Notes under the pieces: model-generated
Databases searched by the model: none
What the model was told of the DNA's origin: nothing
What the model saw: the letters and a program-made list of their open reading frames with translations, nothing else
Source of the DNA: Crossiella equi
GTDB taxonomy: Bacteria; Actinomycetota; Actinomycetes; Mycobacteriales; Pseudonocardiaceae
Reading direction: 5' to 3'
Assembly (NCBI RefSeq): GCF_017876755.1
Contig: NZ_JAGIOO010000001.1
Span: 682,001-746,000 of the forward strand
DNA: 64,000 bases
Part shown: one piece after another, positions 42,234 through 56,165 of the stretch
Layout: each line of letters opens with the position of its first letter
Numbering within the stretch: the stretch's first letter is position 1
Position numbers and translations under genes: made by a program

Positions 42234-43196
42234 TTAGGCCGGGTGAAAACTGGCCAGCACCGCGTCCCGGCAGGAGCGCAGCAGTGCCGCCACCGGTTCG
42301 GCCTCGACCAGCCGGACCGCCTCGTCGAAGTCCGCCCGGGCGGCGTGCATGTGCTCGGCGTACTTGGCGTGCAGGGCCGCGCCCAGCGCGCGCACGTCCG
42401 GGTCGGCGTCGGCGGCGGCCAGCCACTGGCAGTACAGCGCCACGTGCGAGAACGCCCAGGAGCCGTGCAGGAAGCCGAACACCGGGCGCTGGGTGTCCAG
42501 CCAGGGCGCGTAGTAGGTCACCCCGTCCGGGAAGCCCACCCCGTAGGCGGCGAACAGGTCGTTCAGCTCGCTGTGCGCGGCCTCGTGGATGAGGTCCCGG
42601 CTCACGTGCTCGTGGTCGGCGAAGTAGTCCAGGTGCACGGTGGCGGGCAGCGCGTTGGTGGTCCAGCTGCGGATCGCGGTGTCAGTGGGCCGCCGCTCCG
42701 CGATGAGCACCACGACCCCGGTGTTGCGGCGCACGGTCGCGCCGAACCCGGCCGCGGTCGCGGTGGCCAGCGCCCGGGACACCAGGTCGCGGTCGGCCGG
42801 ACTCGCGGTGGCGGCGACCTCGGCGTCCAGCAGCGCCACCGGGGAGGTGGCCAGCGCCTCGTCGGCGACCAGGCGGTCCCCGTCCGGGTTGGCCACCAGC
42901 ACCGGACCGGCCTCGGTGGCCAGCGGGCGCAGCGGCGACTGGTCGGTGCGCAGCCGCAGCAGCTCGGCCACCCGCCCGGCCTGGCCCTGCCCGGCCGCCC
43001 GGCTCACCCCCTCGAAGACGTGGTGGGCCAGCGCGTAGCGCAGCGGCAGGTCCTGCCCGGCCGGACCGTCCCAGTCCCGCGCGCCGGGCAGTCCACTGAG
43101 GACGGAGTCCAGCCTGGCCAGCTTCTCGGCGCGGTAGCGGTCCACCCGCTCGGCGACCTCAGCTGGCAAGGCGCGGTTGAAGTCCGTAGCGCTCAC
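42234..43196 (-). CDS. HExxH-motif RiPP-modification protein
   Basis: A 320-aa protein of the HExxH family that accompanies radical SAM maturases. The motif is DLIHEAAHSEL (about residues 202-212), followed by the family's WLDTQRPVFGFLHGSWAFSHV. Characterised relatives hydroxylate peptide side chains. GTG at 43196 follows AGGAG and overlaps the radical SAM gene by 38 nt, so they are co-translated. The substrate is presumably the 51-aa peptide encoded upstream. Confidence 0.85.
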   Translation of the reverse strand: MSATDFNRALPAEVAERVDRYRAEKLARLDSVLSGLPGARDWDGPAGQDLPLRYALAHHVFEGVSRAAGQGQAGRVAELLRLRTDQSPLRPLATEAGPVLVANPDGDRLVADEALATSPVALLDAEVAATASPADRDLVSRALATATAAGFGATVRRNTGVVVLIAERRPTDTAIRSWTTNALPATVHLDYFADHEHVSRDLIHEAAHSELNDLFAAYGVGFPDGVTYYAPWLDTQRPVFGFLHGSWAFSHVALYCQWLAAADADPDVRALGAALHAKYAEHMHAARADFDEAVRLVEAEPVAALLRSCRDAVLASFHPA

Positions 43197-44394
43197 AGTG
43201 ACTCCTCACGTAGTCGATCAACCACTTGCGGGACGTGCAGTACTCCTCGTCCCAGTCGGTGTCCCGCAGCCGCAGCCGGTCGGCCAGCGAGCCGCCGGAG
43301 CAGACCGAGACGTGCGTGCAGGAGGCGCACCGCGCGAGCAGCTCCCGCATCCCGGTCAGCAGCGGTTCGTTGCGCTGCATGCCGATGATCTCGTCCAGGC
43401 TGCGCACGGTGTCCACCGAGCCGATGGTGGCGTCCGGGGTGGAGATCTCCTCCGAGGCGCCGATCCGGCCGTCCGGGTAGAGGGCCAGGATGAACGGCTC
43501 CTTCACCCCGGACCAGTCGGTGAGCGTGACCTCGGCGCCGGTGAAGTGCAGCAGCATCGAGAACAGCGGCTCCACCAGGAACGACTCGCAGTAGCGCTCG
43601 CTCCACACGTCGAAGCAGTCGGCCACGAAGCGCGCGTACTCCGTGGGTGTGGTGGCCCAGCCCGCCGCACCGCGCGCGGCGCCGTTGAGCGCCAGCAGGT
43701 TCGCGGTGTTGGCCTTGGGGAACTTGAGGGTGCGCACGTTGTAGTCCAGGCACGGGCTCAGCCGCACCGCGCGCACGTGCGGGAAGGAGGCGACCAGCTC
43801 CATGGTCTCGGCCGCCTTGTCCAGCACCAGGTCGGTGACCGTGATGCACAGCGCGATCTGCTTGCCGCGCCTGCGCAGCAGCTCGATCCCGCGCAGCACC
43901 TGGTTGAAGGTGGGCCGGTCGCGGTAGTCCACACGGTGCGCGTTGGCCTCGCGCGGGCCGTCCACCGAGACGCCGATGTCGATGTCGGGGAAGAACTCGT
44001 CGAACAGGTCGATCCAGGTGTCGGTGAGCAGCATCGCGTTGGTCTGCATGGTCAGCTCGACCACCCCGGGGTAGGCCTTGAGCCGCTCCAGCAGCGGGCG
44101 CATCCGGCGCGGGCCGATGAGCAGCGGTTCGCCGCCGTGCAGCACGATGCGCAGTGGCCGTTCCCCCGCCGCGTCCAGGAACGCGCCCAGTGTCTCGGGG
44201 CTGAGCCAGTTCTCGTTCGGGTAGGGCTTGCGCTTCTCGTAGCAGTAGTAGCAGTTGATGTTGCAGGCCGCCCCGGCGAGCTTGAGGATCACGGTGAGCG
44301 AGTCCTCGGGGCGGGGAAGAACGAGGTCCACCTTGGTCTCCGTCCTCGGGGGTGGGGGTGGGGCGGTACCGCTTCCGCCCCACCCCGCCCTCAT
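43159..44394 (-). CDS. Radical SAM peptide maturase with SPASM-like C-terminus
   Basis: A 411-aa radical SAM enzyme. The cluster motif is C44-C48-C51 (CNINCYYCYEK), with the SAM-binding HGGEPL. The C-terminal cysteines (CASCTHVSVC and a later EEYC) suggest an auxiliary cluster as in SPASM maturases. The N-terminus has a Pro-rich lead (PPPPP). ATG lies 3 nt after the stop of the 51-aa peptide gene. The HExxH partner follows directly. This is the arrangement of cyclophane- or thioether-forming RiPP systems; the exact chemistry is not predictable. Confidence 0.92.
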   Translation of the reverse strand: MRAGWGGSGTAPPPPPRTETKVDLVLPRPEDSLTVILKLAGAACNINCYYCYEKRKPYPNENWLSPETLGAFLDAAGERPLRIVLHGGEPLLIGPRRMRPLLERLKAYPGVVELTMQTNAMLLTDTWIDLFDEFFPDIDIGVSVDGPREANAHRVDYRDRPTFNQVLRGIELLRRRGKQIALCITVTDLVLDKAAETMELVASFPHVRAVRLSPCLDYNVRTLKFPKANTANLLALNGAARGAAGWATTPTEYARFVADCFDVWSERYCESFLVEPLFSMLLHFTGAEVTLTDWSGVKEPFILALYPDGRIGASEEISTPDATIGSVDTVRSLDEIIGMQRNEPLLTGMRELLARCASCTHVSVCSGGSLADRLRLRDTDWDEEYCTSRKWLIDYVRSHCERYGLQPRLAS

Positions 44395-44397
44395 GGG

Positions 44398-44553
44398 TCA
44401 GTCCTGCTTGTTGGCGCTGAGCGCTTCCTCGACCCGCTGCCAGTCCCGAGTGCTCACGCTGGACGTGTGCGCGGTGGGCCGGGCGACGACGTCGTCACGG
44501 CGGAACTCCTGGAGTGCCGACAGGAACGCGCTGAAATCGACCTTCTCGCTCAA
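44398..44553 (-). CDS. Candidate RiPP precursor peptide (51 aa)
   Basis: A short gene with TTG start 5 nt after a perfect AGGAGG. The peptide begins SEKVDFSAFLSALQEFRR (leader-like amphipathic helix), continues with a Pro/Thr/Ser segment (ARPTAHTSSVSTRDW) and ends EEALSANKQD. The lone Trp (about residue 38) in TRDWQRV, with nearby His, Arg and Lys, is a plausible modification core. It sits 3 nt before the radical SAM gene. No cysteine is present, which argues against thioether chemistry. Confidence 0.65.
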   Translation of the reverse strand: MSEKVDFSAFLSALQEFRRDDVVARPTAHTSSVSTRDWQRVEEALSANKQD

Positions 44554-44634
44554 CTGAACCTCCTAGTGGTGTGAAGGGCGAGGACGACGCTAGGACCGGC
44601 GCGACCGGTGCCGGAAGACTCCCGAACGGGGACG

Positions 44635-44664
44635 TTGACCGGGTCGGTGCGGCGGGGATTTGCT
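44635..44664 (+). promoter_or_regulatory. Possible promoter of the plus-strand RiPP operon
   Basis: TTGACC (44635-44640), then about 18 bp and TTTGCT (44659-44664), 55 bp before the first ATG of the plus-strand genes. The -35 is good and the -10 weak. Confidence 0.3.
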
Positions 44665-44718
44665 GTGGCAGGTCGGGGTTGTCCCGGCGCTCCCCCTCCG
44701 GAATGGACGGTGGTCGAC

Positions 44719-45075
44719 ATGTCGGTCCCCGCGCTGGAAACCACATCCCGGTGCGTCACGGCCACCGCGTGGGCCGCCCGTGCCCTGCCCCCGCGCCCAC
44801 CCGGCGCCGCGGTGCTCGTGCTCGACGGCGTGCTCAACCCGCTCGGCGAGGACACCGCGCTCGCGCTGCTGCACCGGCTGCCCGCCTGGCTGGGCGGCAC
44901 CGGCCACGCCGAGCTGGAGGTGCTGCTGGGCCCGGGGCTGGGTACCGCGGACCGCTGGGTGCCCACGCCGGGCCGCATCCGCGTGCTCTTCGCCGCGGCC
45001 GGGCTGCGCGTGCTGGCCGAGACCTCCGGTCCGCGCGGGCACCGCTTCCGGCTGGCGGCGGGGGTACGGCGGTGA
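44719..45075 (+). CDS. Hypothetical protein, first gene of the plus-strand operon
   Basis: A 118-aa protein not recognised. It has an Ala/Pro-rich start, then alternating strand/helix segments (GAAVLVLDGVLNPLG, IRVLFAAAGLRVLAETSG). The last part resembles the C-terminal strands of SAM methyltransferases, but no SAM-binding motif is present. The stop overlaps the next gene by 4 nt (GTGA). An in-frame GTG lies three codons upstream. Confidence 0.6.
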   Translation: MSVPALETTSRCVTATAWAARALPPRPPGAAVLVLDGVLNPLGEDTALALLHRLPAWLGGTGHAELEVLLGPGLGTADRWVPTPGRIRVLFAAAGLRVLAETSGPRGHRFRLAAGVRR

Positions 45076-45884
45076 CCGGGGCGCTGCTGCCGGACCCGTA
45101 CTGGGCGGGCATGATCACCGGCCGGGTGGTGCACCTGCACCTGGGCCTGGTGGAGGAGCACCTGGTGCGGGCGCACCGCGAGCAGGAGCAGGCCCTGGCA
45201 GGCAGCGCCTCGGTGGCCGTGCTCAGCGCGCTGGACGGCACCCGCGCCGCCGACCGCGTGCTCGCCCGGCTGCTGGCCGCGCTCGACGGGCATCCGCTGC
45301 CGGAGGGCATCCGGTTCTGGGACACCTTCACCCGGGTCGCTCCGGGGCTGCTCGTGCACGACGACGCCGACGGCGGGGTCACCGAGGGCGTGCGCCGGGC
45401 CTTCGCCCACGCGGGCGAGCTGGGCCTGGGCCCGCTGCTGGAGCTGGGCTGCGGCCTGGCCGCGCTGGACACGCTGCCCCGCGAGTACCGCCCGGCCGCC
45501 GACGCGGGGGAAGCGGTGCTGCTGCCCGCCCGCACCTGGACCCAGCCCACCCCGCTGCTGACCGGCCAGGTGCTGCGCGAGGCCGCGGTCTCCCTCGGTC
45601 TGCAATGGGCCCGCGCCGAGACCGCCGCCTACCGGCTGCCCGCACGCCCGCCCGGCCTGCGCTCCGCGCTCGCCGACTTCGCGCACGGCGTGCTGGCCGA
45701 GTACCGCAGGCGCGCGGGCGGACCGGTCCCCGTGCGCGCCGGGGTTCCCGCGCAGGTGGCCGAGCTGCCCCTGCTGTCCGAGCTGGTGCGCTGCTGGTGG
45801 CCCTCCCCCGGCCGCGCCCGCCACGTCTTCGGTTCGCCCTTCGACCACATGACCACCCTGGAGGTGCCCGGTGCATGTCGCTGA
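45072..45884 (+). CDS. Possible inactivated HExxH-family protein
   Basis: A 270-aa protein. Its C-terminal half can be laid over the HExxH protein at 42234: TGQVLREAAVSLG against the active LIHEAAHSEL, then RPPGLRSALADFAHGVLAEY against RPVFGFLHGSWAFSHVALY. Both metal-binding histidines are lost. It may therefore be a non-catalytic paralogue or peptide-binding subunit. The alignment is by eye and weak elsewhere. GTG start, coupled at both ends. Confidence 0.5.
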   Translation: MTGALLPDPYWAGMITGRVVHLHLGLVEEHLVRAHREQEQALAGSASVAVLSALDGTRAADRVLARLLAALDGHPLPEGIRFWDTFTRVAPGLLVHDDADGGVTEGVRRAFAHAGELGLGPLLELGCGLAALDTLPREYRPAADAGEAVLLPARTWTQPTPLLTGQVLREAAVSLGLQWARAETAAYRLPARPPGLRSALADFAHGVLAEYRRRAGGPVPVRAGVPAQVAELPLLSELVRCWWPSPGRARHVFGSPFDHMTTLEVPGACR

Positions 45885-46557
45885 GAGCTTGTTCGTCGGA
45901 AGCGTTCCCGCCTTCCTGCTACCCGAGGAGGTCGACGAGCTGGACCGCGTGCTGGTCGGCCGCTACGCCGGTGACCCGACGGTGGCCGCGCGCTCCCGCG
46001 AGGAGTCGGTGCACAGCATCGAGGGCTACAGCACCCAGCAGGCCATGGAGGTCTACGAGCCCGAGGGCCGGGACGAGCTGATGACCCTGCCCGAGGAGGC
46101 GCTGAAGGTCCTCACCATCGCCGCCGAGCGGTTCCTGCCCACCGTGCGCACGATGCTGCCGTCGGTGCGGGAGATGGGCTACTGGACGTTCGTCAGCTAC
46201 ACCGAGGGCCAGTACATCACCCCGCACATCGACCTCAGCAACAACGACTGCGAGCCCGACCACCCGAAGGTCGCGGGCATCAGCCTGTGCCTGAGCGACC
46301 CGGGCGAGTACACCGGCGGCGAGTTCTTCATCGAGACCATCTGCGACCCCGAGCAGTGGCAGGACTCCGACCGCGGCCCGGTGGTGCGCCCGGAGTGCGA
46401 CGCCTCCTCCGACTGGTACCGCGCGCAGCCGCGCTCCCGCTGGCGCGCCCGCCCGCGCCGGGGCGAGGGCCTGCTCTACGGCTCCCAGCTCACCCACGGC
46501 ACCGAACCCGTGCTGTCCGGGCGCATCAACAAGATCATCGGCTTCCTGGTGTCCTGA
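45871..46557 (+). CDS. 2-oxoglutarate/Fe(II)-dependent oxygenase
   Basis: A 228-aa prolyl-4-hydroxylase-like enzyme. The iron ligands are visible as HID in YITPHIDLS and the distal His in LTHGTEPV. The 2OG-binding Arg follows in SGRINKII, and GGEFFIET marks the jelly-roll core. Inference: it hydroxylates the peptide or a tailoring intermediate. GTG at 45871 overlaps the previous gene by 14 nt. Confidence 0.87.
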   Translation: MHVAESLFVGSVPAFLLPEEVDELDRVLVGRYAGDPTVAARSREESVHSIEGYSTQQAMEVYEPEGRDELMTLPEEALKVLTIAAERFLPTVRTMLPSVREMGYWTFVSYTEGQYITPHIDLSNNDCEPDHPKVAGISLCLSDPGEYTGGEFFIETICDPEQWQDSDRGPVVRPECDASSDWYRAQPRSRWRARPRRGEGLLYGSQLTHGTEPVLSGRINKIIGFLVS

Positions 46558-46590
46558 CCGGCACCCCGTTCCAGAGAGCAGGAGAGCAAC

Positions 46591-47244
46591 GTGCGAGTGC
46601 GCATGGGAATCCGACTGGCCACCCAGAACCAGGGCATGTCCAACCTGGAGCGGCTCAACGCCATCTACTGGGGCCTGTCCTCGACCCTGATCCACCGGGT
46701 GCCGGGCGCGGTGGTGGAGCTGGGCTGCAACCAGGGCCTGACCAGCGTGTGGCTGGCCCAGATCATCCAGGACTTCGCGCCGGAGCGGGAGCTGCACCTG
46801 TTCGACTCCTTCGAGGGCCTGCCCGAGCTGGGCGAACAGGACGCCTACCTGCGCAAGGGCGACTGCCTGGCCTCGATCGACCAGGTGAAGGAGAACTTTG
46901 CCACCTGGGACCTGCCGCTGCCGTTCGTGCACGCGGGCTGGTTCGAGGAGAGCCTGCCCGGGTCCTGCCCGGAGCGGATCGCCTTCGCCTATCTGGACGG
47001 CGACTTCTACCAGTCGATCAAGACCAGCCTGGAGTACGTCTATCCGCGGCTGGCCCCGGGCGGCATCGCGCTGGTCGACGACTACTGCGACCTGGACGTC
47101 AACCCCAGGGCCTGGGACGGGCTGCCCGGGGTGAAGCAGGCCTGCGACGACTACTTCGGCGCGGGCGCCCCGCAGCTGGAGGTGCTGGGCGGGGTCGGTG
47201 ACCTGAGCATGGCGCTGATCCGGAAGCCGCTCGATGAGGGGTGA
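46591..47244 (+). CDS. TylF/MycF-type O-methyltransferase
   Basis: A 217-aa SAM-dependent methyltransferase. It shows VVELGCNQGLTSVWLA, FDSFEGLPELGE, DGDFYQSIKTSLEYVYPRL and APGGIALVDDY, the Mg-binding pattern of the macrocin O-methyltransferase family. Its usual substrates are sugar or phenol hydroxyls, so a hydroxylated product of the oxygenase is a logical target (inference). GTG follows AGGAGAG; the end overlaps the kinase gene by 11 nt. Confidence 0.88.
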   Translation: MRVRMGIRLATQNQGMSNLERLNAIYWGLSSTLIHRVPGAVVELGCNQGLTSVWLAQIIQDFAPERELHLFDSFEGLPELGEQDAYLRKGDCLASIDQVKENFATWDLPLPFVHAGWFEESLPGSCPERIAFAYLDGDFYQSIKTSLEYVYPRLAPGGIALVDDYCDLDVNPRAWDGLPGVKQACDDYFGAGAPQLEVLGGVGDLSMALIRKPLDEG

Positions 47245-47887
47245 GCGCCGCTTCCCGTTCATCGCCATCGAGGGCACCGACGGCAGCGGCAAGTCCACCT
47301 TGCGGGACGTGCTCAACCGCGAGCTGGCCCGCCAGGGCCACACCTGCTTCATGGTGGGCCAGCACAGCTGGCTGGACGTCGGTGCCGGACGGGTCGTGCT
47401 GGCCGCCCGCAACCAGCGGCTCGGCCACTCCCGCGAGGAGCTGACCCGGGCCTACGCCCTGGACAAGTTCCTGCACCTGCGGGAGAACATCGAGCCCGCG
47501 CTGGCCACCGCCGGGGTGCTGGCCGACCGGTTCGTGCACAGCGACGCCGTCTACCACGACGTGCTGTACGGCATCCCCGCCGAGCGGACCCTGGCCCGGC
47601 ACCGCGAGCTGGGCACCCGCCTGCCGGACCTGGTGCTCTTCGTCGACACCGACCCGGACATCGCCTACCAGCGGGTGCTCCGCCGCAACAAGGCCAGCCG
47701 CCCGCACGAGACCCGCGAGACCCTGCGCGCGCTGCGCGAGAAGTACCTCGCGGTGCTCGGCCGGGAACGCGGTCCGGTGCTGCGGGTGGACAACAGCGGC
47801 CCGGCGGTGGAGCGCACCGCGGCCACCGTGCTGACCCAGGTGCTCCCGCTGTTCCGCCGACCGGAGGAGGTGCGTCGCCTTGCTTGA
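47234..47887 (+). CDS. Thymidylate kinase-like P-loop kinase
   Basis: A 217-aa protein of the dTMP kinase/deoxynucleoside kinase fold. The P-loop is GTDGSGKST. The DRFVHSD motif corresponds to the DR(Y/F) base region, and a Lys/Arg lid follows (RRNKASRP). A biosynthetic-cluster copy, not the housekeeping tmk, is likely. Phosphorylation of a nucleotide or another small molecule is possible. Confidence 0.85.
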   Translation: MRGERRFPFIAIEGTDGSGKSTLRDVLNRELARQGHTCFMVGQHSWLDVGAGRVVLAARNQRLGHSREELTRAYALDKFLHLRENIEPALATAGVLADRFVHSDAVYHDVLYGIPAERTLARHRELGTRLPDLVLFVDTDPDIAYQRVLRRNKASRPHETRETLRALREKYLAVLGRERGPVLRVDNSGPAVERTAATVLTQVLPLFRRPEEVRRLA

Positions 47888-48773
47888 CCTGCACCACCCG
47901 GCACGGGTCTTCGCCGAGCACCTGGCGGAGCGGGGCCTGCCGCTCAAACGGGTGCTCGCCTTCGCCGGGCTCAGCACGATCACCGTCGTGGACACCACCG
48001 CCCGCGCGGACGTCCCGGCCGAGGAGGCGGTGGCCAAGGGCCTGTGCGGCTACTACCACGTGATCGAGCACGCCCCGCCCGAGCAGCGGCCCGGCGTGTA
48101 CGGCTACTACTGGTACAAGCGGTACGGGCCCGCCCAGCACGAGGCCTGGCGCACCGCCTTCCACCTCGAGCACCAGGTGCTCTCGGCGCTGTGCGGCCAA
48201 CCGGGCATCGCCGAGGTGTGGACGGCGGAGCTGGCCGAGGGCATCCCGCACTTCCTCATGCGGCACTACGCCCGCGGCTCGCTGGCCGCGCACGCCGGTG
48301 CCCTGGGCTGGCAGGTGGACGCCGAGCTGGCGCTCACCGCGGCCGCCGACATCGCCACCGGCCTGGAGGTGCTGCACGGCAAGGGGATCGTGCACCGTGA
48401 CCTGAACGCGGAGAACGTGCTGCGCACCGACGACGGGCACTTCGTGCTCACCGACCTGGGCAACGCCCGGGACGTGCACGCGCCGCCGTGCGGTCCGAGC
48501 AGCAGGCCGGATGAGTTCCACTGGCCGCCGGAGTACGCCACCGGCTACGACACCGCCGACACCCGCGCCGACCTGTACTCGCTGGGTGTCCTGATCCACC
48601 AGCTGACCACCGGGCGGATGCCGCGCCACCTCGGCCGGTCCTGCCAGGCCAGTGCCGCCGGACGGTTCCCGCCCGGCCTGCTGGCCGTGGCCGACGCCTG
48701 CCTGGAGCCCGATCCGGACAACCGGCCCGAGTCGGCCGCCGAGGTGCTGGCCTGCCTGGCACCACACCGTTAG
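47880..48773 (+). CDS. Serine/threonine protein kinase-like protein
   Basis: A 297-aa cytosolic kinase-fold protein. The catalytic loop is VHRDLNAENVL, the magnesium loop reads TDLGNARD, and the APE region is altered (PPEYATGY). The N-terminal lobe lacks a clear glycine-rich loop, though a candidate Lys is in YYWYKRYG. It has no membrane or PASTA domain, so it may phosphorylate a peptide or small molecule in the pathway. TTG start overlaps the previous gene by 8 nt. Confidence 0.82.
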   Translation: MLDLHHPARVFAEHLAERGLPLKRVLAFAGLSTITVVDTTARADVPAEEAVAKGLCGYYHVIEHAPPEQRPGVYGYYWYKRYGPAQHEAWRTAFHLEHQVLSALCGQPGIAEVWTAELAEGIPHFLMRHYARGSLAAHAGALGWQVDAELALTAAADIATGLEVLHGKGIVHRDLNAENVLRTDDGHFVLTDLGNARDVHAPPCGPSSRPDEFHWPPEYATGYDTADTRADLYSLGVLIHQLTTGRMPRHLGRSCQASAAGRFPPGLLAVADACLEPDPDNRPESAAEVLACLAPHR

Positions 48774-48781: not shown

Positions 48782-49837
48782 ATGGAGTACCGACCGCTGG
48801 GCCGCACCGGCATCAAGGTCAGCAAGCTGTGCCTGGGCGCGCAGAACTTCGGCCAGGAGGGCACCACCGACCGCGCCGAGTCCGAGCACCTGCTCGGCGC
48901 CGCGCTGGACGCCGGGATCAACCTCATCGACACCGCCGACATCTACGGGGACTCCGAGGAGATCATCGGCGACTGGCTGGCCCGCACCGGCCGCCGCGAC
49001 ACCGTCGTGCTGGCCACGAAGTTCGGCTCCAAGGGCCTGGTGAAGGACCCCAACGGCAAGGGCGGGTCGCGGCTGTGGGTGCGCCGCAGCATCGAGCGCA
49101 GCCTGCGCCGCCTCCGCACCGACCACGTGGACCTGTTCCAGCTCTACCGCTACGACAAGTACACCGACTTCGAGGAGACCCTGTCGGTGCTCACCGACCT
49201 GGTGCGCGAGGGCAAGGTGCTCTCGATCGGCGTGTCCACGCTGCCGCCGGAGATGATCGTGGAGACGCACTGGGTGTCCGAGAAGCACCACTACGCCCGG
49301 TTCCGCAGCGAGCAGTCGCCGTACTCCATCTTCGCCAGGGCGGTGGAGGGCCACCTGCTGCCGACCTGCCAGCGCTACGGCATGGGCGTGCTCACCTGGG
49401 GCTCGCTCAACGGCGGCTGGCTCACCGGCGCCTACCGGGCGGGCCAGCCCTTCCCGGCGGGCTCGCGTGCGGCGAAGTGGCGCCTGGACCCGGCCGACCC
49501 GGGCGTGCGGCGCAAGCTGGAGCTGGTGGAGCAGCTGACCGACCTGGCCAAGTCGGCGGGCCTGTCGCTGGTGCAGCTGGCCCTGGGCTTCGCCACAGAG
49601 CACCCGGCGGTGTCCTCGGCGATCGTGGGCGCCCGCAACCGCGCGCAGCTGGACGAGGCGCTGACCGCGGCGGACGTGCGGCTGGACCTGGAGGTGCTGG
49701 AGCGCATCGACGAGATCGTGGAGCCGGGCAGCTACGCCGACTACGGAACCGGGTCCGCGCTCAGCTCCAACCGCGGTGACTCCGGCTTCACCGCCGAGCC
49801 CTTCCGCAACCCCGAGCAGCGGCGCCGTCCTCGCTAG
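48782..49837 (+). CDS. Aldo/keto reductase
   Basis: A 351-aa NADPH-dependent TIM-barrel reductase. The tetrad Asp and Tyr lie in LIDTADIYGDSEE and the Lys in LATKFG. The His position of DLYQLH is Tyr here (DLFQLYRYDK). Cofactor-binding (IVGARNRAQLDEAL) is normal. The altered tetrad, as in some beta-subunit-type relatives, may change activity. ATG is 8 nt after the kinase stop. Confidence 0.9.
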   Translation: MEYRPLGRTGIKVSKLCLGAQNFGQEGTTDRAESEHLLGAALDAGINLIDTADIYGDSEEIIGDWLARTGRRDTVVLATKFGSKGLVKDPNGKGGSRLWVRRSIERSLRRLRTDHVDLFQLYRYDKYTDFEETLSVLTDLVREGKVLSIGVSTLPPEMIVETHWVSEKHHYARFRSEQSPYSIFARAVEGHLLPTCQRYGMGVLTWGSLNGGWLTGAYRAGQPFPAGSRAAKWRLDPADPGVRRKLELVEQLTDLAKSAGLSLVQLALGFATEHPAVSSAIVGARNRAQLDEALTAADVRLDLEVLERIDEIVEPGSYADYGTGSALSSNRGDSGFTAEPFRNPEQRRRPR

Positions 49838-49846: not shown

Positions 49847-50278
49847 GTGAAGATCACTGTTGCGAAGGTCGTGGCCTTCGTCGTGCACCAGGACCGAGTC
49901 GCCGTGTTCACCCAGGACGACGAGGACTCCGGTCTCCAGGTGCCCGCGGGCACGCTGCGCCCCGGCGAGGAGCCGGAGGCGGGCGCGCTGCGCGAGGCCA
50001 CCGAGGAGACCGGCCTGTCCGGCCTGCGGGTGGTCGGCCACCTCGGCCGGTACCAGTGGGACATCTCGCCGATCCGGGAGGAGATCCAGGACCGGCACGT
50101 CTTCCAGCTGGCCCTGGACGTGGCCCCGCCGGAGCGCTGGGACAGCCACGAGATGCACGACGGGCTGCGCGAGCCCACTCCCCTGCACTTCCGCTGGCTG
50201 CCGCTCGGGGACCCCGAGCTGGCCGAGCTGGTGGTCGGCCAGGGCACGTTCCTCGACCGCGTGGTGCGCGAGTCCTGA
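49847..50278 (+). CDS. Nudix hydrolase
   Basis: A 143-aa Nudix protein. The full box is present from G-TLRPGEE through LREATEETGL (about residues 35-57). It may clean up an activated nucleotide produced by the kinase or nucleotidyltransferase-like proteins. GTG start, 9 nt after the reductase stop. Confidence 0.9.
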   Translation: MKITVAKVVAFVVHQDRVAVFTQDDEDSGLQVPAGTLRPGEEPEAGALREATEETGLSGLRVVGHLGRYQWDISPIREEIQDRHVFQLALDVAPPERWDSHEMHDGLREPTPLHFRWLPLGDPELAELVVGQGTFLDRVVRES

Positions 50279-50381: not shown

Positions 50382-50447
50382 ATGAACCGCAACCACGTCA
50401 GCCTGCTCCGTCCGCGTCTGGAGAAGGTCGTCACCAAGAAGAACTGA
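50382..50447 (+). CDS. 21-aa peptide gene (candidate second precursor)
   Basis: A very short gene with an excellent AGGAGGG site 7 nt before ATG. The peptide starts MNRNHVSLLRPRLEK and ends VVTKKN, strongly basic. A 103-bp gap precedes it and a perfect hairpin follows 8 nt after the stop. This layout (tiny ORF, strong RBS, downstream attenuator, protease gene next) is typical of RiPP precursors such as PqqA, although the PqqA E-x3-Y motif is absent. Confidence 0.55.
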   Translation: MNRNHVSLLRPRLEKVVTKKN

Positions 50448-50490: not shown

Positions 50491-50512
50491 CCCGGCCCCA
50501 CCGGAGGCAGCC

Positions 50513-51715
50513 ATGACCACGATCCAGCGAGGCGCCGCCGGTGGCCTCGATCTGCTCTGCGTGCCCGACGACCGCCTGCGCACGGTCAGCCTGGCCCTGG
50601 GTGTCGCCTACGGCGCCCGCTTCGACCCCTCCGGCCAAGGCGGAGTGGCGCACCTGCTGGAGCACCTGCTGATGTCTGGCACGACCGGCCGCGAGCACTC
50701 GGTGAGCGAGCTGGTGGAACGCCTCGGCGGCCACGCCAACGCGCAGACCGGCCCGGACACCATGGCCTTCTACGCCCAGGTGCTCGCCGAGGACGCCCCG
50801 CTGGTGGCCCGCGAGCTGTGCACCGCCGTGCTGTCCCCGGCGCTGGACCCGGCAGAGTTCGACCAGGAACGCGAGGTGGTGCTGCGCGAGCTGGCCGGTG
50901 CCGCCGCCGACCCCAGCGACGTCGTGCAGGACGCCCTGCTGGCGGAGCTGTTCCCGGGGCACCCGCTCGGCCGTCCCGTCGGCGGGATGCCCGAGGAGCT
51001 GCGGGCGCTCACCCTGTCCGATGTGGACACCGCCTACCACGGGGTGTTCGCCACCCGCCCGGCCGCGCTGATCGCGGTCGGGCCGCTGTGCGTGGACGAG
51101 CTGGCCGCGCTGGTCGCCGATCGCCTCCCGCAACGGCGGGTCGCGGCATTCGACCCGGTGCCGCCGGGACCGCTGGCGCCGCGCACGGTGTCCGGGCCGC
51201 ACCAGGAGTTCTCCTGGCTGTGCCTGGGTTCCCGGGCGCCGAGCCGGAGCGGCGGCGACCACGCCGCGCACGTGGTGCTGGCCGCCCTGCTCGGCGGCAG
51301 TCCGGCCTCGGTGCTCTACCGCGCGCTGCGCGGGGAACGCGCGCTGTCCTACAGCTTCCAGGCCTGGTGCACCGCCTACGCCGAGTCCGGTGCCTGGCGG
51401 GTGCTCGTCGGCGCCGAACCGGACGCGGTCGGGGAGGTGCGCGTGGTGGTCCGGGAGATCCTGGCCAAGCTCGCCGCGCACGGACCGGACCCCGAGGACC
51501 TGGACGCCGCCCGCCGACAGTCCACCATGGACCTGGTCCGCACCGCCGAGGCCCCCCTGGACCTGGTCGTGCACGTGCTCAAGCGCACCTGGGCCGGAGC
51601 GGTGCGGTGGGACCTCGACACCGAGGTCGCCGACCTGGCCGCGGTCTCGGCCGAACGCGTCCAGCGCGCCGCCGAGCAGGTCCTGGCCGGGCTGACCGAG
51701 GTGGTCCGGCCGTGA
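50513..51715 (+). CDS. M16-family zinc peptidase
   Basis: A 400-aa insulinase/processing-peptidase subunit. The inverted zinc motif HxxEH is at H47-E50-H51 (HLLEH), with the distal Glu near residue 126 (VVLREL). Only one such subunit is present, so it may be a homodimer or half-site enzyme. M16 proteins (PqqF, PqqG) trim RiPP leaders. It starts 23 nt after the hairpin and its stop overlaps the next gene. Confidence 0.9.
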   Translation: MTTIQRGAAGGLDLLCVPDDRLRTVSLALGVAYGARFDPSGQGGVAHLLEHLLMSGTTGREHSVSELVERLGGHANAQTGPDTMAFYAQVLAEDAPLVARELCTAVLSPALDPAEFDQEREVVLRELAGAAADPSDVVQDALLAELFPGHPLGRPVGGMPEELRALTLSDVDTAYHGVFATRPAALIAVGPLCVDELAALVADRLPQRRVAAFDPVPPGPLAPRTVSGPHQEFSWLCLGSRAPSRSGGDHAAHVVLAALLGGSPASVLYRALRGERALSYSFQAWCTAYAESGAWRVLVGAEPDAVGEVRVVVREILAKLAAHGPDPEDLDAARRQSTMDLVRTAEAPLDLVVHVLKRTWAGAVRWDLDTEVADLAAVSAERVQRAAEQVLAGLTEVVRP

Positions 51716-52485
51716 CCGCCCCCTACCTGGCCGCCGCCCGCGAGGCCGGACTGCTGCACCACCTGCGCGGCCACGCGTACGTGCTGGGCGAGTTCCACGA
51801 CGCCCTGTCGGGCACCACGTTCCCCTTCGTCGAGCACGCCGAGGACGGACTGCTCGCGGACCCGGCGCTGCTCGAGGAGCTGCCCCCGGGCCCGGTCCTG
51901 CTGCGCACCGAGGGCGAGCGCGTACCGGACGGCCCGTGGACGCGGTGGCTGACCTACCTGCGCCTGCCCGCCGAACCCGCCCGCCCGGAGACCGACCTGG
52001 TCTGCGCGCCCGCGCGGGCCGAGGAGGAGCCACTGGTGGCGGAGTGGCTGTGGCAGGCCTTCCTCGCCGGAGCGCCCGAGGCCGCCCCGGACGCCGTGGC
52101 CGGGGTGGTGGCCGCTGTGCTGGCCGCGCCGGGCCGCCACACGCTCGTGGCCCGGCGCGAGGGCCGGGCCATCGGGCACGCGACGCTGCTGCCCGGCGGG
52201 CACGACGACGTCACCGGCGAGTCCTTCGTGGAGCTGGTGGACTCCCTGGTCGAAGCGGAGCAGGACCGGCGGGTGGCCACCGAGCTGTTCGTGCACGCCG
52301 CCTGGCGGCTCGCCCGGGAGCTCGGCGAGCCGCTGGTCGGCAACGTGGTCCACCACTCCGGCGGCCAGCGGGTGCTCGACTCGCTGTGCCGCCGGGGCTG
52401 GCGGGTCTGGCACAGCTACTGGACGAGCACCCCGAGCGGGGTCAGCCAGGTGTCGCGCAGCACGCCCCCGGCGGTCAGCGCGTAG
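51712..52485 (+). CDS. GNAT-family acetyltransferase
   Basis: A 257-aa protein with a C-terminal GNAT fold (HTLVARREGRAIGHATLLPG, FVELVDSLVEAEQDRRVATEL). The N-terminal 100 residues are not recognised. It may acetylate the product or act in self-protection (inference). GTG overlaps the M16 stop by 4 nt. The 3' end overlaps the convergent nucleotidyltransferase-like gene by 70 nt, and the last 20 residues look poorly structured. Confidence 0.75.
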   Translation: MTAPYLAAAREAGLLHHLRGHAYVLGEFHDALSGTTFPFVEHAEDGLLADPALLEELPPGPVLLRTEGERVPDGPWTRWLTYLRLPAEPARPETDLVCAPARAEEEPLVAEWLWQAFLAGAPEAAPDAVAGVVAAVLAAPGRHTLVARREGRAIGHATLLPGGHDDVTGESFVELVDSLVEAEQDRRVATELFVHAAWRLARELGEPLVGNVVHHSGGQRVLDSLCRRGWRVWHSYWTSTPSGVSQVSRSTPPAVSA

Positions 52486-53567
52486 GTGCCCGCCGGGCAG
52501 CGCAGCAGCGCGCCGGGGCCGTGGAACTCCAGGTTCGCGGTCTCGGCGCGCTCCTCGGACAGCTCCACGCCGTGCAGCGGCACGCCCAGCTCGTACAACC
52601 GGCGCGCGCCGACCTTCTCCTGCACCGCGGCCACGTACTTCTCGCAGCGGGCCACCACCGAGGCGCGTTCGGTCTCGCGCGCGGTGTAGTTGGCCACCGC
52701 GATCGACCCGGCCACCGGCCCGTTCAGGCGGGGCGCGGTGCGCGCGGGCAGCGCGGCGCGGCGGGGCAGGGCCGCCCGGATCTGGTCCAGCACCGGCAGC
52801 GCGGCCGGGTAGCGGCGGGCGGCCTCGGCGCACAGGCGGCGGAAGGCCGGGCGCAGCTGGTAGTCCACCAGGTTGCGCGCGATGGCGGCCAGGTCACCCC
52901 GGTCGCGCAGGTGGTGGTCGAGCACGGCCAGGTCGACCATGTCGCGCATGCGGAACTCGCGTTCGGCGATCTCGTCGACGAACCAGGTGAAGCAGTCGGC
53001 CAGCGTCGGTGCCCCGGTGAGCGTGCGCGGCCGGGCGGGCAGCCGGAAGTGGTCGCCCCGGTAGCAGACCGCGGTCAGCTCGACCCGGTCCTTGTTGGTC
53101 AGGCGGGGGTGCTTGCTCGGCCGGTTGAGCTGCACACCCGGCTGGAGCCGTCCGTCCACCTCGGTCACCGAGACCGAGCTCAGGTTCCAGCCCAGCCCGC
53201 GCAGGTCCTCGGCTACCGCCCACACCGCCTCCGGCGAGGAGCACAGCACGTCCAGGTCCGCGGTCTCGCGCACCAGCGGCTCCGGGTAGAGCCCGCAGAT
53301 GGTGGGCCCCTTCATCGGCACCGCGGTCGGGTCCAGGGACTGCACCCGGGCCAGCACCGAGCGGTAGGCCGCCTGCCGCTCCCGCTCGTACCGGGTCTCC
53401 AGCGCCAGGGGCTCGGGCACCTCGGCACCCGTGGCCTCCCAGTAGCTGACCAGCGTCGGCATCGTCCGCTGCTCGTTGCGGGAGAACTGCACGTACCGGA
53501 ACGGCACGTGCGGCACCTCCAACGGCAGGAAGGCGGCGACGATCTCCTCCACGGGCGGCAGCCACAT
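52416..53567 (-). CDS. Nucleotidyltransferase-family protein (NTP_transf_5-like)
   Basis: A 383-aa protein. The nucleotidyltransferase core is suggested by PMKGPTICGLYP followed by ADLDVLC, the metal-binding D-x-D. Such proteins are found in several RiPP and polysaccharide loci, but their function is unsettled. ATG at 53567 follows GAGAGGAG. It is divergent from the ABC exporter. Confidence 0.78.
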   Translation of the reverse strand: MWLPPVEEIVAAFLPLEVPHVPFRYVQFSRNEQRTMPTLVSYWEATGAEVPEPLALETRYERERQAAYRSVLARVQSLDPTAVPMKGPTICGLYPEPLVRETADLDVLCSSPEAVWAVAEDLRGLGWNLSSVSVTEVDGRLQPGVQLNRPSKHPRLTNKDRVELTAVCYRGDHFRLPARPRTLTGAPTLADCFTWFVDEIAEREFRMRDMVDLAVLDHHLRDRGDLAAIARNLVDYQLRPAFRRLCAEAARRYPAALPVLDQIRAALPRRAALPARTAPRLNGPVAGSIAVANYTARETERASVVARCEKYVAAVQEKVGARRLYELGVPLHGVELSEERAETANLEFHGPGALLRCPAGTYALTAGGVLRDTWLTPLGVLVQ

Positions 53568-53610
53568 GGCGGTCTCCTCTCCAGTACCGGGACTCGGCAC
53601 CCGAACCTAA

Positions 53611-53650
53611 CCTCGCACGGGTGCGAGGACGACGTCCCCAGACGGGGACG
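53611..53650. promoter_or_regulatory. Two consecutive palindromes in the divergent gap (possible operator)
   Basis: CCTCGCAC-GG-GTGCGAGG (53611-53628) and CGTCCCC-AGAC-GGGGACG (53633-53650) lie back to back between the nucleotidyltransferase-like gene and the exporter. They may bind a repressor or form hairpins in either leader. Confidence 0.4.
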
Positions 53651-53687
53651 CAGCGCGAACCCCTTGGCAGCGGCCAGGATGGTGGCC

Positions 53688-54617
53688 ATGACCGCCGAAC
53701 AGCCAGCCATCGCGGTGACGGGGCTGAACCGAGCCTTCGGCACCCGCCAGGCGTTGTCCGATGTGGACCTGACGGTGCGGCGCGGTGAGGTGCACGGCCT
53801 GCTCGGGCCCAACGGCGCGGGCAAGACCACGCTCTGCCGCGTCCTGTCCACGGTGCTGCTGCCCACCTCCGGGCGCGCCCTGGTCGAGGGCTTCGACGTG
53901 GTGCGGGACACCGCGCGGGTGCGCAAGCGCCTCGGTGTGGTCTTCGGCGGCGAGCGCGGGCTCTACACCCGGCTCACCGCGCGCCAGAACCTGCGCTTCT
54001 GGGCCGCGCTGTACCGGCGGCCCGCCGCCGAGGTGGGCCCGCTGCTCGACCAGGTCGGTCTCGGTGCCCGCGCGGACGAGCGCGTGGAGACCTTCTCCCG
54101 GGGCATGAAGCAGCGCCTGCACCTGGCCCGGGGGCTCATCGGCGATCCCGGGGTGCTGGTGCTGGACGAGCCGACCACCGGCATGGACCCGGTGGCCGCG
54201 CGCGAGTTCCGCACCCTGGTGGAGCAGCTGCGGGCGCAGGGCCGCACCGTGCTGCTGACCACGCACGACATGGCCGAGGCCGAGGCGCTGTGCGACCGGG
54301 TGTCCATTGTGGACTCGGGCCGGGTGCTGGCCACCGAGGACCCGAGGACGATCGGGCGCTGGCTCACCCGCTACGAACGGGTGCTCGCCCAGGACGTGCC
54401 GCCCGAGGTGGCCGAGGAGCTGGCCCGGCTGCCCGAGGTCGTCGCGGTGGAACCGCGGCGCCCCGGGGAGGTGCTGGTGCGGACCGGCACCGAGGGCGGG
54501 GTCGGCGTGGTGCTGGCCCGGCTGCTCGCGGCCGGGGTGACCTCGGTGGCCACCACGCCCCCGTCGCTGGAGGAGGTCTACCTCGAGGTGATCGGTGACC
54601 GAGGGCTGGTGGTGTGA
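53688..54617 (+). CDS. ABC exporter ATP-binding protein
   Basis: A 309-aa DrrA-like ATPase. It has Walker A (GPNGAGKTT), signature FSRGMKQRLHLARG, Walker B (LVLDEPTTGMDP) and switch His (LLTTHDM). Two ABC-2 permeases follow with 1-nt and 4-nt spacing. The trio probably exports the modified peptide. ATG is preceded by a modest AGGATGG. Confidence 0.93.
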   Translation: MTAEQPAIAVTGLNRAFGTRQALSDVDLTVRRGEVHGLLGPNGAGKTTLCRVLSTVLLPTSGRALVEGFDVVRDTARVRKRLGVVFGGERGLYTRLTARQNLRFWAALYRRPAAEVGPLLDQVGLGARADERVETFSRGMKQRLHLARGLIGDPGVLVLDEPTTGMDPVAAREFRTLVEQLRAQGRTVLLTTHDMAEAEALCDRVSIVDSGRVLATEDPRTIGRWLTRYERVLAQDVPPEVAEELARLPEVVAVEPRRPGEVLVRTGTEGGVGVVLARLLAAGVTSVATTPPSLEEVYLEVIGDRGLVV

Positions 54618-54618
54618 G

Positions 54619-55386
54619 GTGGAGGTCTTCCTGGCCGCCGTGCGGCTCCAGCTGGCCCGGCTGCGGCGTGCCCCCGGCTCCCTCCAGGTCCTGGTGGCCA
54701 CTCCCCTGTACGCGATCGCCTTCCTTTCCGTCGTGGACGCGGCGGGCCGCCCGGACCTGGTGCCCTACGCCGTGCTCGCCCCCGGGGTGATGGCGCTGTG
54801 GCAGATCGCGCTCACCGTCTCGGGCGAGGCGGTGGACGAGGAACGCGCCAACGGCAGCCTGGAGCTGCTGCTGGTCTCCCCCGCACCGCTGCTGCTGGTG
54901 GTGCTCGGCCGGGTGGCCACGACCACCGCGCTGAGCCTGTTCTCCGTGCTGGAGAGCTGGCTGGCCTGCTGGCTGGTGCTCGGCGTGCTCATCCCGGTCA
55001 CCGACCCGCTGCTGTTCACCGCGACGCTGCTGGCCACCGCCGCGGCGATGACCGGGACCGCGACGGCGCTGGCCGCGCTGTTCGTGCGGGCGCGGTCGGC
55101 GCGGGTGTTCCAGAACGCGTTGGGCTACCCGGTGTTCCTGCTCGGCGGGGCGATGGTGCCGGTGGCGCTGCTGCCGGACTGGCTGCACCCGGTGAGCCGC
55201 CTGGTGTTCCTGTCCTGGTCCACCGACCTGCTGCGGCACAGCCTCGGCGGTCCCGAGGCGGTGCCGCCGCTGCTGGGCCTGGCCGCGGTGCTGGTACTGG
55301 GCGCCGCCGGGTTCCTCACCGGCTGGCTGCTGCTGGGCCGGGTGCTGGACCGGGTGCGCACGACGGGAGCGGTGGTGCTGTCATGA
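54619..55386 (+). CDS. ABC-2 type permease (first)
   Basis: A 255-aa membrane protein with six hydrophobic segments and the ABC-2 cytoplasmic loop DEERANGSLELLLVSP, followed by ARVFQNALGYPVFLLGGAM. GTG at 54619 is chosen just after the ATPase stop; GTG at 54595 would give eight more residues. It forms a heterodimer with the next gene (inference). Confidence 0.88.
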   Translation: MEVFLAAVRLQLARLRRAPGSLQVLVATPLYAIAFLSVVDAAGRPDLVPYAVLAPGVMALWQIALTVSGEAVDEERANGSLELLLVSPAPLLLVVLGRVATTTALSLFSVLESWLACWLVLGVLIPVTDPLLFTATLLATAAAMTGTATALAALFVRARSARVFQNALGYPVFLLGGAMVPVALLPDWLHPVSRLVFLSWSTDLLRHSLGGPEAVPPLLGLAAVLVLGAAGFLTGWLLLGRVLDRVRTTGAVVLS

Positions 55387-56165
55387 ACGTGCTGCGGGTC
55401 GTGGGCAACGCGGCCAGGGCCGGTTGGGCGGACTACACGGCGGTGTACACGCTGCGCAGCTGGCTGCTGGGCTGGCTGCTGCGGGTGCTGTGCCAGGTCG
55501 CGTTCTTCACCTCGGTGGGCCGCCTGGTCGGCGCGGGCGCGAGCCCGGCCTACCTGCTGGTGGGCAACGCGGTGCTGATCGCGGCGATGGAGAGCTGCAT
55601 GGTGGTGGCCTCCACCACCTGGGAACGCCGGGCGGGCACCCTGCCGCTGCTGGTCGCCTCGGGCACCCACCCGGCGGCGGTGTTCTGCGGCCGCAGCGTG
55701 CACTGGGTGGCCACCGGCACGCTCACCTCGCTCACCTCCCTGGCGGTGATCGGTCTGGCGGTCGAACCGTCCCTGCTGGGCCGGGGCTTCCTGCTGGCGG
55801 TCCCGCTGGTCCTGCTGGTCGCGGCCAGCACGTACTGCTTCGCCCTGGTGCTGGCCGCCCTGGTGCTGCGGTTCATGGAGCTGCGCAACGTGATCGGCAA
55901 CCTGGCCTACCTGGGCCTGATGGTGCTGTGCGGCGTGCAGGTCCCGGTGGGCTACTGGCCGCCGGTGCTCCAGCACGTGGCCGCCGCCCTGCCCCTGACC
56001 CACGGCCTGTCCGCCGTCCGCGCGGCCCTGGGCGAGGGCCAGGTGCTGCGCCCGGCCGCCCTGGAGGCCGTGGTCGGGCTGTGCTGGCTCGGGCTGGCCG
56101 TGCTGGCCTTCCGCTGGCTGGTGGACGGCGGCCGCCGGGACGGGTCGATCGAGTTCAACGACTGA
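55383..56165 (+). CDS. ABC-2 type permease (second)
   Basis: A 260-aa six-helix permease with the loop STTWERRAGTLPLLVASG and the late motif GVQVPVGYWPPVLQHVAAAL, typical of ABC-2 permeases. ATG overlaps the previous stop by 4 nt. Last gene of the RiPP locus before degraded sequence. Confidence 0.88.
   Translation: MNVLRVVGNAARAGWADYTAVYTLRSWLLGWLLRVLCQVAFFTSVGRLVGAGASPAYLLVGNAVLIAAMESCMVVASTTWERRAGTLPLLVASGTHPAAVFCGRSVHWVATGTLTSLTSLAVIGLAVEPSLLGRGFLLAVPLVLLVAASTYCFALVLAALVLRFMELRNVIGNLAYLGLMVLCGVQVPVGYWPPVLQHVAAALPLTHGLSAVRAALGEGQVLRPAALEAVVGLCWLGLAVLAFRWLVDGGRRDGSIEFND

Follow-up and report, generated by a model that had tools for sequence, protein, structure and literature searches.

A predicted His-cyclophane RiPP pathway with a thymidylate-kinase-like partner and an adjoining peptide module in Crossiella equi

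What product is encoded by a dense cluster of maturase, kinase and exporter genes in Crossiella equi, and do these genes belong to a single pathway? The cluster lies in a 64,000-nucleotide stretch (hereafter the window; bases 682001-746000 of the 9.44-Mb single-contig genome), in which a sequence-only reading had described one 14-kb gene set for an undescribed ribosomally synthesized and post-translationally modified peptide (RiPP) outside the named classes. Gene starts were set from open reading frames (ORFs) and third-position GC, and profile searches found all the gene types named by that reading close to their expected places, the GNAT being the weakest. The families above their curated cut-offs in the window were Radical_SAM, TylF, Thymidylate_kin, Pkinase, NTP_transf_5, TIGR04267, Aldo_ket_red, NUDIX, Peptidase_M16, and ABC_tran. 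The locus is composed of two modules, module 1 (36588-50278) and module 2 (50382-56165). With a probability of about 0.6, module 1 is predicted to make a phosphorylated, beta-hydroxylated His-cyclophane RiPP, here also thioamidated, with module 2 as its processing and export partner; the chemistry, the order of the steps and the functional link between the modules are what we infer from these genes.

The module 1 family and its precursor

A precursor, a radical S-adenosylmethionine (radical SAM) maturase, an HExxH protein and a thymidylate-kinase-like (TMK-like) protein occurred together in 36 of 37 loci, which came from Actinomycetota and one Paenibacillus (36 loci are non-redundant, as L092 repeats L054). 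When the 37 loci were searched with profiles, the radical SAM gene was found in 37, and the TMK-like and HExxH genes in 36 each. Peripheral families were less frequent (methyltransferase c3, 14; YcaO, 6; TfuA, 6; phosphoenolpyruvate (PEP)-mutase-like protein, 15). The profiles were partly seeded from counted loci (13 loci for radical SAM, 12 for TMK-like, and 12 for HExxH), and the TMK-like gene was present in 24 of 24 loci that had given no seed to its model, among which L092 repeats a seed locus. Twenty other radical SAM loci of the same family served as controls and were scanned with 18 profiles: the TMK-like and precursor profiles matched none, HExxH matched two, the protein kinase, aldo/keto reductase (AKR) and c3 profiles matched one each, the radical SAM profile matched all 20, and the other profiles matched none. 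From these counts, the module 1 gene set is therefore not a chance neighborhood. The sequence-only reading had tied its claim to the genes being conserved together, and for module 1 the radical SAM neighborhood search came out in its favor.

The loci were collected by several scans. A scan of GTDB contigs with the radical SAM alignment gave 15 loci, of which 11 were kept (L049-L059) and L060-L063 were dropped as weak matches. A whole-genome search of 394 genomes from the class found G306 and G588 (only G306 was positive in its three-genome family), and in one genus, inferred to be Streptomyces, 22 of 295 genomes had the module 1 radical SAM, G588 included. These 22 matches comprised 20 new loci, G588, which is L072, and G1072, which was excluded for its partial radical SAM gene. 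An FxsB plasmid match (H3) was also excluded, and a phylum-wide scan gave no new member among 396 genomes. In L069 and L070, module 1 is carried by two large linear Streptomycetaceae plasmids (Streptomyces/Kitasatospora). Among 297 same-family genomes, radical SAM orthologues were found in G205 (86%) and G265 (74%), and the remaining matches listed were at most 45% identical and mostly partial. Both G205 and G265 keep YcaO, TfuA, HExxH, radical SAM, precursor, the protein encoded at 45072, the 2-oxoglutarate (2OG) oxygenase, TylF, TMK-like, protein kinase, AKR, and Nudix genes, and the core set of four spans Pseudonocardiaceae-type genomes to Paenibacillus. The radical SAM tree took in one of the 20 controls after a length cut and is uninformative on a single origin.

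The precursor of module 1 (44398..44553, minus strand) is a 51-residue peptide with a TTG start, MSEKVDFSAFLSALQEFRRDDVVARPTAHTSSVSTRDWQRVEEALSANKQD, with the leader motif FxxFLxAL and the core A-H-T-S-S-x(5)-W. Relatives were found in all 37 loci, 36 by a hidden Markov model (HMM) and that of L104 in addition, and in none of the 20 controls. The HMM was seeded with 14 peptides, some from counted loci, and the core motif was defined after viewing the peptides. The 36 HMM-found precursors (34 distinct) gave 20 distinct cores around the His, which was itself present in all 20; Ala directly preceded it in 18, and Thr stood at -2 in 18. Position +2 from the His was Ser or Ala in 20 of 20 (18 Ser, 2 Ala), so that the motif H-x-S/A was present in 36 of 36 HMM-found precursors. 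Trp stood at +9 from the His in 19 of the 20 distinct cores, and both the residue directly after this Trp and the one two after it were variable. Cys was present in no core and in three leaders.

We found no description of module 1 or module 2 in the open-access literature, where such clusters may sit unnamed in supplementary tables. Because the core set co-occurs widely, the 20 controls lack it, the radical SAM protein falls below the equivalogue cut-offs (best 25 of 61 models), and our searches of open-access papers found no description, the claim of an undescribed RiPP system outside the named classes stands. Module 1 is apparently a widespread, undescribed pathway that remodels a 51-residue peptide around one conserved His.

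Predicted modifications of the module 1 peptide

The maturase is a radical SAM/SPASM-type protein (43159..44394, minus strand; PF04055, 63 bits). Its best specific NCBIfam model was YhhB (132 bits, cut-off 445), and its scores with AmcB (119 bits, cut-off 425) and FxsB (117 bits, cut-off 370) were also below the cut-offs. The C-x3-C-x2-C pattern was kept in 35 of 38 matched radical SAM ORFs, the exceptions being L070 and the two fragments of the L108 gene, which is broken, and C341, C344, C350, and C371 of the C-terminal Cys-rich domain were invariant in 11 aligned rows. The L108 gene (8445-10358) is split into two matched ORFs, and a genome search showed one internal TGA. The radical SAM proteins of L069, L070, and L072 are 627-631 residues long with a C-terminal domain matching c12, which stands alone in L051-L056 and has matches in or beside the radical SAM of L093-L111. 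Like the maturases of triceptides/3-CyFE (HaaB, ScaB, YhhB, FxsB), of which YhhB is the best specific model, the protein is SPASM-type and lies beside a short precursor; unlike them, it scores far under the family cut-offs, and its family is accompanied by TMK-like genes (36 of 37 loci) and, less often, by YcaO-TfuA (6 of 37). According to a review (PMC11002830), HaaB and ScaB form C2(His)-Cβ(Ala) and YhhB forms C2(His)-Cβ(Arg) bonds, giving three-residue rings from i to i+2. The H-x-S/A motif of module 1 agrees with the aromatic-x-X motif of triceptide cores and is similar to the His-x-Ala sites that HaaB and ScaB act on. By this analogy, H-x-S/A would fit an i/i+2 His crosslink site, and the radical SAM enzyme would bond the His imidazole to Cβ of the residue at +2 (Ser or Ala), giving a His cyclophane.

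The HExxH protein (42234..43196, minus strand) matched the aKG-HExxH-type peptide beta-hydroxylase model TIGR04267 with 55.3 bits, above the cut-off of 40. The HExxH motif was present in 36 of 37 matched ORFs, the miss being L108. When its AlphaFold model (pLDDT 89.6) was searched with Foldseek, five matches fell below E 0.001, namely four 8s5f chains and SjiH 22ob (E 1.4e-7); the HExxH domain of ChlB, 8s5f, had E 3.4e-8, TM 0.62, and rmsd 6.2. The likeness to ChlB/ChlH and SjiH thus lies in the TIGR04267 score and the fold matches, and the difference from ChlB/ChlH is that the window protein is a stand-alone gene product and shares 14% identity with 8s5f in the fold alignment. ChlH is described as hydroxylating a cyclophane peptide at His and Asp (PMC12636437). 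The HExxH enzyme, often together with a 2OG enzyme, would hydroxylate the ring region of the His cyclophane. The 2OG-Fe(II) oxygenase of the window (45871..46557, plus strand; PF13640, 21.1 bits, below the cut-off of 27) belongs to a family present in 28 of 37 loci, with a loose H-x-D...H pattern kept in 27 of the 28 members, and a TylF-type O-methyltransferase (46591..47244, plus strand; PF05711, 100 bits; 20 of 37 loci) would methylate.

The sequence-only reading had overlooked a YcaO protein (36588..37649, plus strand; PF02624, 219.8 bits) and a TfuA protein (37652..38902, plus strand, start uncertain; PF07812, 134.5 bits); because both are part of module 1, the locus extends further to the left. 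Adjacent YcaO-TfuA genes near the precursor, radical SAM and HExxH genes were found in the window and five other loci. We tie the pair to the precursor because L049 and the Paractinoplanes locus L050 have the order precursor-radical SAM-HExxH-YcaO-TfuA on one strand, an order also found in G265. The best specific model for YcaO, second to the general YcaO model, was that for McrA-glycine thioamidation, TIGR03266 (175.6 bits, cut-off 365), ahead of SagD (110.1 bits, cut-off 219.25), and TfuA scored 141.3 bits against NF033432 (cut-off 235.2). Both proteins were thus below the curated thioamidation cut-offs, whose models were built for McrA, and YcaO was also below the azoline SagD-type cut-off. 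No E1-like or nitroreductase family was present among the module 1 genes scanned. The best fit to McrA-thioamidation models, the core without Cys, and the absence of an azoline partner family among the scanned genes make a thioamide the likelier outcome of YcaO-TfuA, which in the window lineage would convert a backbone amide to a thioamide. Adjacent ycaO and tfuA genes near a precursor are also found in the thioviridamide type and the thiovarsolins. A survey of TfuA clusters (PMC8120280) describes some that contain a radical SAM gene; these come from Sphaerisporangium, Microbispora, and Herbidospora and also encode a stand-alone PqqD, a P450, and an O-methyltransferase. Lentzea, Actinoplanes, Virgisporangium, and Verrucosispora are not named in the main text of the survey.

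The near-universal partner enzyme is the TMK-like P-loop kinase (47234..47887, plus strand; PF02223, 76 bits). It was present in 36 of 37 module 1 loci, with the P-loop kept in 36 of 36, and in 0 of 20 controls. Its score against the dTMP kinase model TIGR00041 was 82.0 bits, just below the cut-off of 83.25, and the Crossiella equi genome holds one other PF02223 match. The REPGG loop is a dTMP kinase motif; at its position, 16 aligned members have GQ(H/F)(S/G)W or LTTNF. The next gene encodes a protein-kinase-fold enzyme with HRDLxxxN (47880..48773, plus strand; PF00069, 65.6 bits), found in 16 of 37 loci with HRD intact in 16 of 16. It is followed by an AKR (48782..49837, plus strand; PF00248, 238.5 bits; family in 9 of 37 loci) and a Nudix hydrolase with an intact Nudix box (49847..50278, plus strand; PF00293, 47.5 bits), the last gene of module 1. 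Nudix proteins of the window type occurred in 14 of 37 loci and a second type in 15 others; all 16 matched ORFs of the window type had an intact Nudix box, and the strict pattern failed in 15 of 15 of the second type. Because the TMK-like P-loop, the protein kinase HRD and the window-type Nudix boxes are intact, phosphorylation of the module 1 peptide is plausible. The kinase-fold enzymes would phosphorylate an installed or native hydroxyl, with the TMK-like enzyme as the shared step, and the Nudix enzyme would trim or detoxify phosphoanhydrides. The earlier proposal that a kinase/Nudix/nucleotidyltransferase trio points to a phosphorylated or nucleotidylated product held for the kinase, which is near-universal in module 1, and not for the nucleotidyltransferase, which in the window sits in module 2. 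L049, L050, and L059 each contain their own NTP_transf_5-type gene, and another 15 module 1 loci have a protein that is nucleotidyltransferase-like by motif only, with no Pfam match in the one tested. To judge from these homologies, the product may be phosphorylated or nucleotidylated.

Phosphorylation by kinases is described for lasso peptides, and for pseudomycoidin the kinase has a nucleotidyltransferase-like partner, so that a kinase and a nucleotidyltransferase-like gene in one RiPP cluster are a shared feature (PMC9266682). By analogy, the lasso-peptide kinases offer the idea a precedent but offer none for the module 1 family. The kinase fold, which is HPr-kinase-like in the pseudomycoidin type, is different here, and no lasso genes were among the annotated genes of the window locus.

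Unassigned proteins and variable genes complete module 1. The 118-residue ORF at 44719..45075 (plus strand) may derive from the end of a methyltransferase gene that has been lost, perhaps a C-terminal remnant of the class I methyltransferase c3, which holds this place in L049; it matched c3 over 22 residues at 50% identity in the same place, with E from 0.0006 to 0.01 depending on the database, and elsewhere in the Crossiella equi genome c3 had weak matches only. The protein at 45072..45884 (plus strand; c14 family) had no Pfam or NCBIfam match, was 61% and 53% identical to its counterparts in G205 and G265, with three weak matches besides, and its AlphaFold model (pLDDT 81, pTM 0.83) had no fold match in PDB (best E 2.2). 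The c14 family occurred in 6 of 37 loci, namely five of the six YcaO-type loci and the compact G306 locus L071. Grouping of the small unknown proteins c14, c58 and that of L069 as one family was rejected, since a weak similarity was seen only between c14 and the L069 protein (hhalign E 1.6e-4). In the Streptomyces loci, sugar enzymes are encoded together with an AICAR-formyltransferase-like enzyme and two kinases of the APH type. Fifteen loci (L051, L070, L072, L093, L095-L099, L101, L106, and L108-L111) have a PEP-mutase-like protein beside a 2-hydroxyacid-dehydrogenase-like gene, with EDSxYPKxNS in 15 of 15. The PEP mutase motif is EDK, in the place of which these proteins have EDS; the pair might contribute C-P or C-C chemistry to a RiPP pathway. 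The Paenibacillus locus (L059:14028-16540) has a leucyl aminopeptidase (Pfam M17) and a GntG-type pyridoxal phosphate (PLP) aldolase (236.7 bits, cut-off 230).

Several observations weigh against a His-cyclophane pathway with this full set of modifications. The radical SAM protein reaches no curated maturase cut-off among the best 25 of 61 models, YcaO-TfuA is present in only 6 of 37 loci, and in L057, a contig of a metagenome-assembled genome and the sole such locus, TMK-like and HExxH genes were unmatched in the available stretch. The crosslink could also run via the near-invariant Trp (W-x-x) at +9; Trp triceptides are known (PMC11002830). We regard a Trp crosslink as unlikely, though worth keeping in mind, since the residue two after the Trp varies whereas that two after the His is Ser or Ala in every distinct core, and since L071, which departs from the common core of the family, has Met and not Trp at +9. 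That YcaO makes an azoline is quite improbable: Ser and Thr are plentiful in the core and the SagD model gives 110 bits, but the TfuA partner, the higher McrA-thioamidation score, the lack of core Cys and of E1-like or nitroreductase partners among the module 1 genes scanned all speak for a thioamide. The TMK-like, protein-kinase-like and Nudix proteins might instead serve self-protection or regulation rather than biosynthesis, since kinases and Nudix enzymes are able to inactivate products and a TMK-like protein scoring just under the dTMP kinase cut-off could be a resistant dTMP kinase. This is doubtful, as its presence in nearly every locus and its altered REPGG loop are unlike a spare housekeeping copy, and the genome has another PF02223 match. 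Equally doubtful is that the peptide is a scaffold only, from which a modified His (or Trp) unit would be excised to give a small nucleotide-like phosphorylated metabolite, much as pyrroloquinoline quinone (PQQ) is made from PqqA. The M17 aminopeptidase and the aldolase of Paenibacillus would suit the cleavage of a beta-hydroxy amino acid, the AKR, kinases and Nudix act on small molecules, and the Streptomyces loci add AICAR-formyltransferase-like and sugar enzymes; however, the aldolase was noted in the Paenibacillus locus only, no search for it being made elsewhere, and 19 of 20 distinct cores preserve the nine-residue distance from His to Trp, as would be expected if this segment were important in peptide form.

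Module 2 and its relation to module 1

Module 2 opens with a 21-residue peptide, MNRNHVSLLRPRLEKVVTKKN (50382..50447, plus strand), which has a ribosome-binding site, lies between the Nudix and M16 genes, and is conserved in G205 at the peptide level. It is followed by an M16 peptidase with an HLLEH motif (50513..51715, plus strand; PF00675, 90.6 bits; PqqF model 47.4 bits, cut-off 320) and a GNAT-like protein (c37; 51712..52485, plus strand). The window copy of the latter had no Pfam or family match, and L152, one of two relatives tried, had a weak one to PF00583 (Acetyltransf_1), below the cut-off. An NTP_transf_5 protein is encoded on the minus strand (52416..53600; PF14907, 33.6 bits, cut-off 31.2). 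The ABC exporter consists of a DrrA-like ATPase (53682..54617, plus strand; PF00005, 107 bits; drrA 254 bits, cut-off 312) and two permeases (54595..55386 and 55383..56165, plus strand; drrB 35.8 and 25.9 bits, both below the cut-off), both of which were matched in L148-L150, L152-L156, L160, and L171-L173.

The GNAT-like protein was found in 11 of 294 family genomes at 14 places, two of which are the window and G205; nine were opened, and three weak ones were left out. In the nine opened loci, ten module 1 queries gave no match in 14-18 kb, and in eight of the nine a peptide of 18-23 residues, M-x(1-3)-H-x3-[LM]-R-P-[RK]-[LI], lay just upstream of M16; L151 had a 44-residue variant only and no M16 match. 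Of eight plasmid records (five of Streptomyces goshikiensis, one of Mg1, and two others), three were opened (L157-L159). These large linear Streptomyces/Kitasatospora plasmids carry module 2 and had no match to the module 1 queries; the peptide was in place in two, about 6 kb away in L158, and not among the annotated genes of the three records. In total, the tiny peptide was in place in 16 of 18 module 2 loci. Both candidate precursors proposed by the sequence-only reading are thereby backed, that at 44398-44553 (minus strand) by relatives in 37 of 37 module 1 loci and that at 50382-50447 (plus strand) by this conservation. The tiny-peptide patterns were written after viewing the peptides; across a further 51 loci, 20 of which were controls, the pattern matched once in 1.02 Mb, in L052 beside module 1. 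No Pfam or NCBIfam model matched the three tiny peptides tried, and to our knowledge 18-23 residues is near the lower size limit of known ribosomal precursors. The M16, GNAT-like and NTP_transf_5 queries matched 0 of 20 control loci.

The neighbors of module 2 in three sampled loci were an aminotransferase, an iron-dependent alcohol dehydrogenase (Fe-ADH), and NTP_transf_5 in L149, an APH, a methyltransferase, and a class II tRNA-synthetase-like protein in L152, and a SIS/amidotransferase and a B12 radical SAM protein in L156. From the stand-alone loci and these varied biosynthetic neighbors, module 2 is portable. Its M16 protease and ABC exporter would process and export, and the peptide of about 20 residues would be a second ribosomal substrate or a processing partner. 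PQQ biosynthesis uses PqqA with the M16 protease PqqF. Module 2 resembles it in having a peptide of about 20 residues and an M16 protease, and differs in that its M16 falls below the PqqF cut-off and that no module 1-type radical SAM was present in the nine stand-alone loci.

Module 2 adjoins module 1 in six loci (the window, G205, L052, L053, L055, and G1068), with the tiny peptide in each. Besides module 1, G205 keeps the M16, GNAT-like, NTP_transf_5 and ABC genes; in G1068 (L160), NTP_transf_5 was not found. The remaining three of the six are from S. galbus (L171), S. sp. HM190 (L172), and Pilimelia (L173), and their stretches overlap the module 1 loci letter for letter. In these three and G1068, the tiny peptide, M16 (43-46%), GNAT-like protein (33-36%) and three ABC genes adjoin module 1. 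In a tree, the six adjoining loci fall in two sister radical SAM clades. Whole-genome M16 checks covered nine module 1 genomes, and the other module 1 loci were checked within the available stretches (L056 starts at a contig end); Lentzea, Paractinoplanes, Virgisporangium, Verrucosispora, and Paenibacillus had only M16 proteins of 23-34% identity, elsewhere in the genome. The 14 kb as a fixed single-pathway set was rejected, because the M16-to-ABC genes occur without module 1 in nine loci and module 1 occurs without them in L049 and L050; the M16, GNAT-like, NTP_transf_5 and exporter genes form a second module that also occurs on its own.

We propose that in the window clade module 2 would act as the processing and export partner of module 1. 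This part of our reading is burdened by the 12 of 18 opened loci in which module 2 stands without module 1, and by its absence around L049 and L050, the closest relatives after G205. That module 2 is an unrelated peptide system merely next door is a real possibility, if one we would put below even odds: nine family loci have no module 1 match in 14-18 kb, three Streptomyces plasmid loci likewise, and L049 and L050 have no module 2. On the other hand, the adjacency recurs in six loci from two sister radical SAM clades (46-49% identity) with otherwise different gene sets, and the GNAT-like gene is found in just 11 of 294 family genomes and 0 of 20 control radical SAM loci. A bolder and very unlikely reading would have one product made from two ribosomal peptides, in which the 51-residue peptide becomes a phosphorylated His-cyclophane, thioamidated in this lineage, with a nucleotide-kinase homologue as an obligatory maturase, and is joined to, or cut from, a ribosomally made LRPRL carrier or escort of about 20 residues by M16, GNAT and NTP_transf_5 during export. 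If this were true, several unrelated natural-product pathways would have taken up this one carrier module.

Flanking genes and implications

To the left of YcaO lie two regulators, perhaps of module 1. A LuxR-type regulator (35797..36375, minus strand) was recognized as an ORF with a helix-turn-helix (HTH) by eye, with a similar stretch at the same place in G205. An HTH-STAND regulator (34609..36009, plus strand, end uncertain; HTH_31/AAA matches) was 55% identical to a protein at the same place in G205 and had no match in G265. Between TfuA and HExxH (39000-41503) are a histidine kinase, by profile match, and a response regulator and a VanZ-like ORF, both named by eye; these genes were unmatched in G205 and L049-L059 at E<1e-2, except for a 24% regulator match in L059. 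The interval 41503-42234, between two convergent genes, contains nested imperfect inverted repeats with arms of 74, 55, and 48 nt (78-89% complementary) and three exact copies of GGCCAACACGCC. A tRNA scan found none. Further away (1643-25667), the window encodes a pyruvate-formate-lyase-like protein with an adjoining radical SAM gene, GAPDH, a P-type ATPase, nicotinate phosphoribosyltransferase, a CoA ligase, and a GAF histidine kinase, a set that resembles an actinomycete gene island for low oxygen or dormancy.

Two new peptide families may await characterization here. If our reading of module 1 is true, a thymidylate-kinase homologue would be the near-universal partner enzyme of a RiPP family, and this family would unite chemistries so far described apart, namely a His cyclophane, HExxH hydroxylation, thioamidation, and phosphorylation. 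The locus further exposes a portable module around a ribosomal peptide of 18-23 residues, and both modules offer direct genetic handles, such as precursor mutants and co-expression, toward new natural products.

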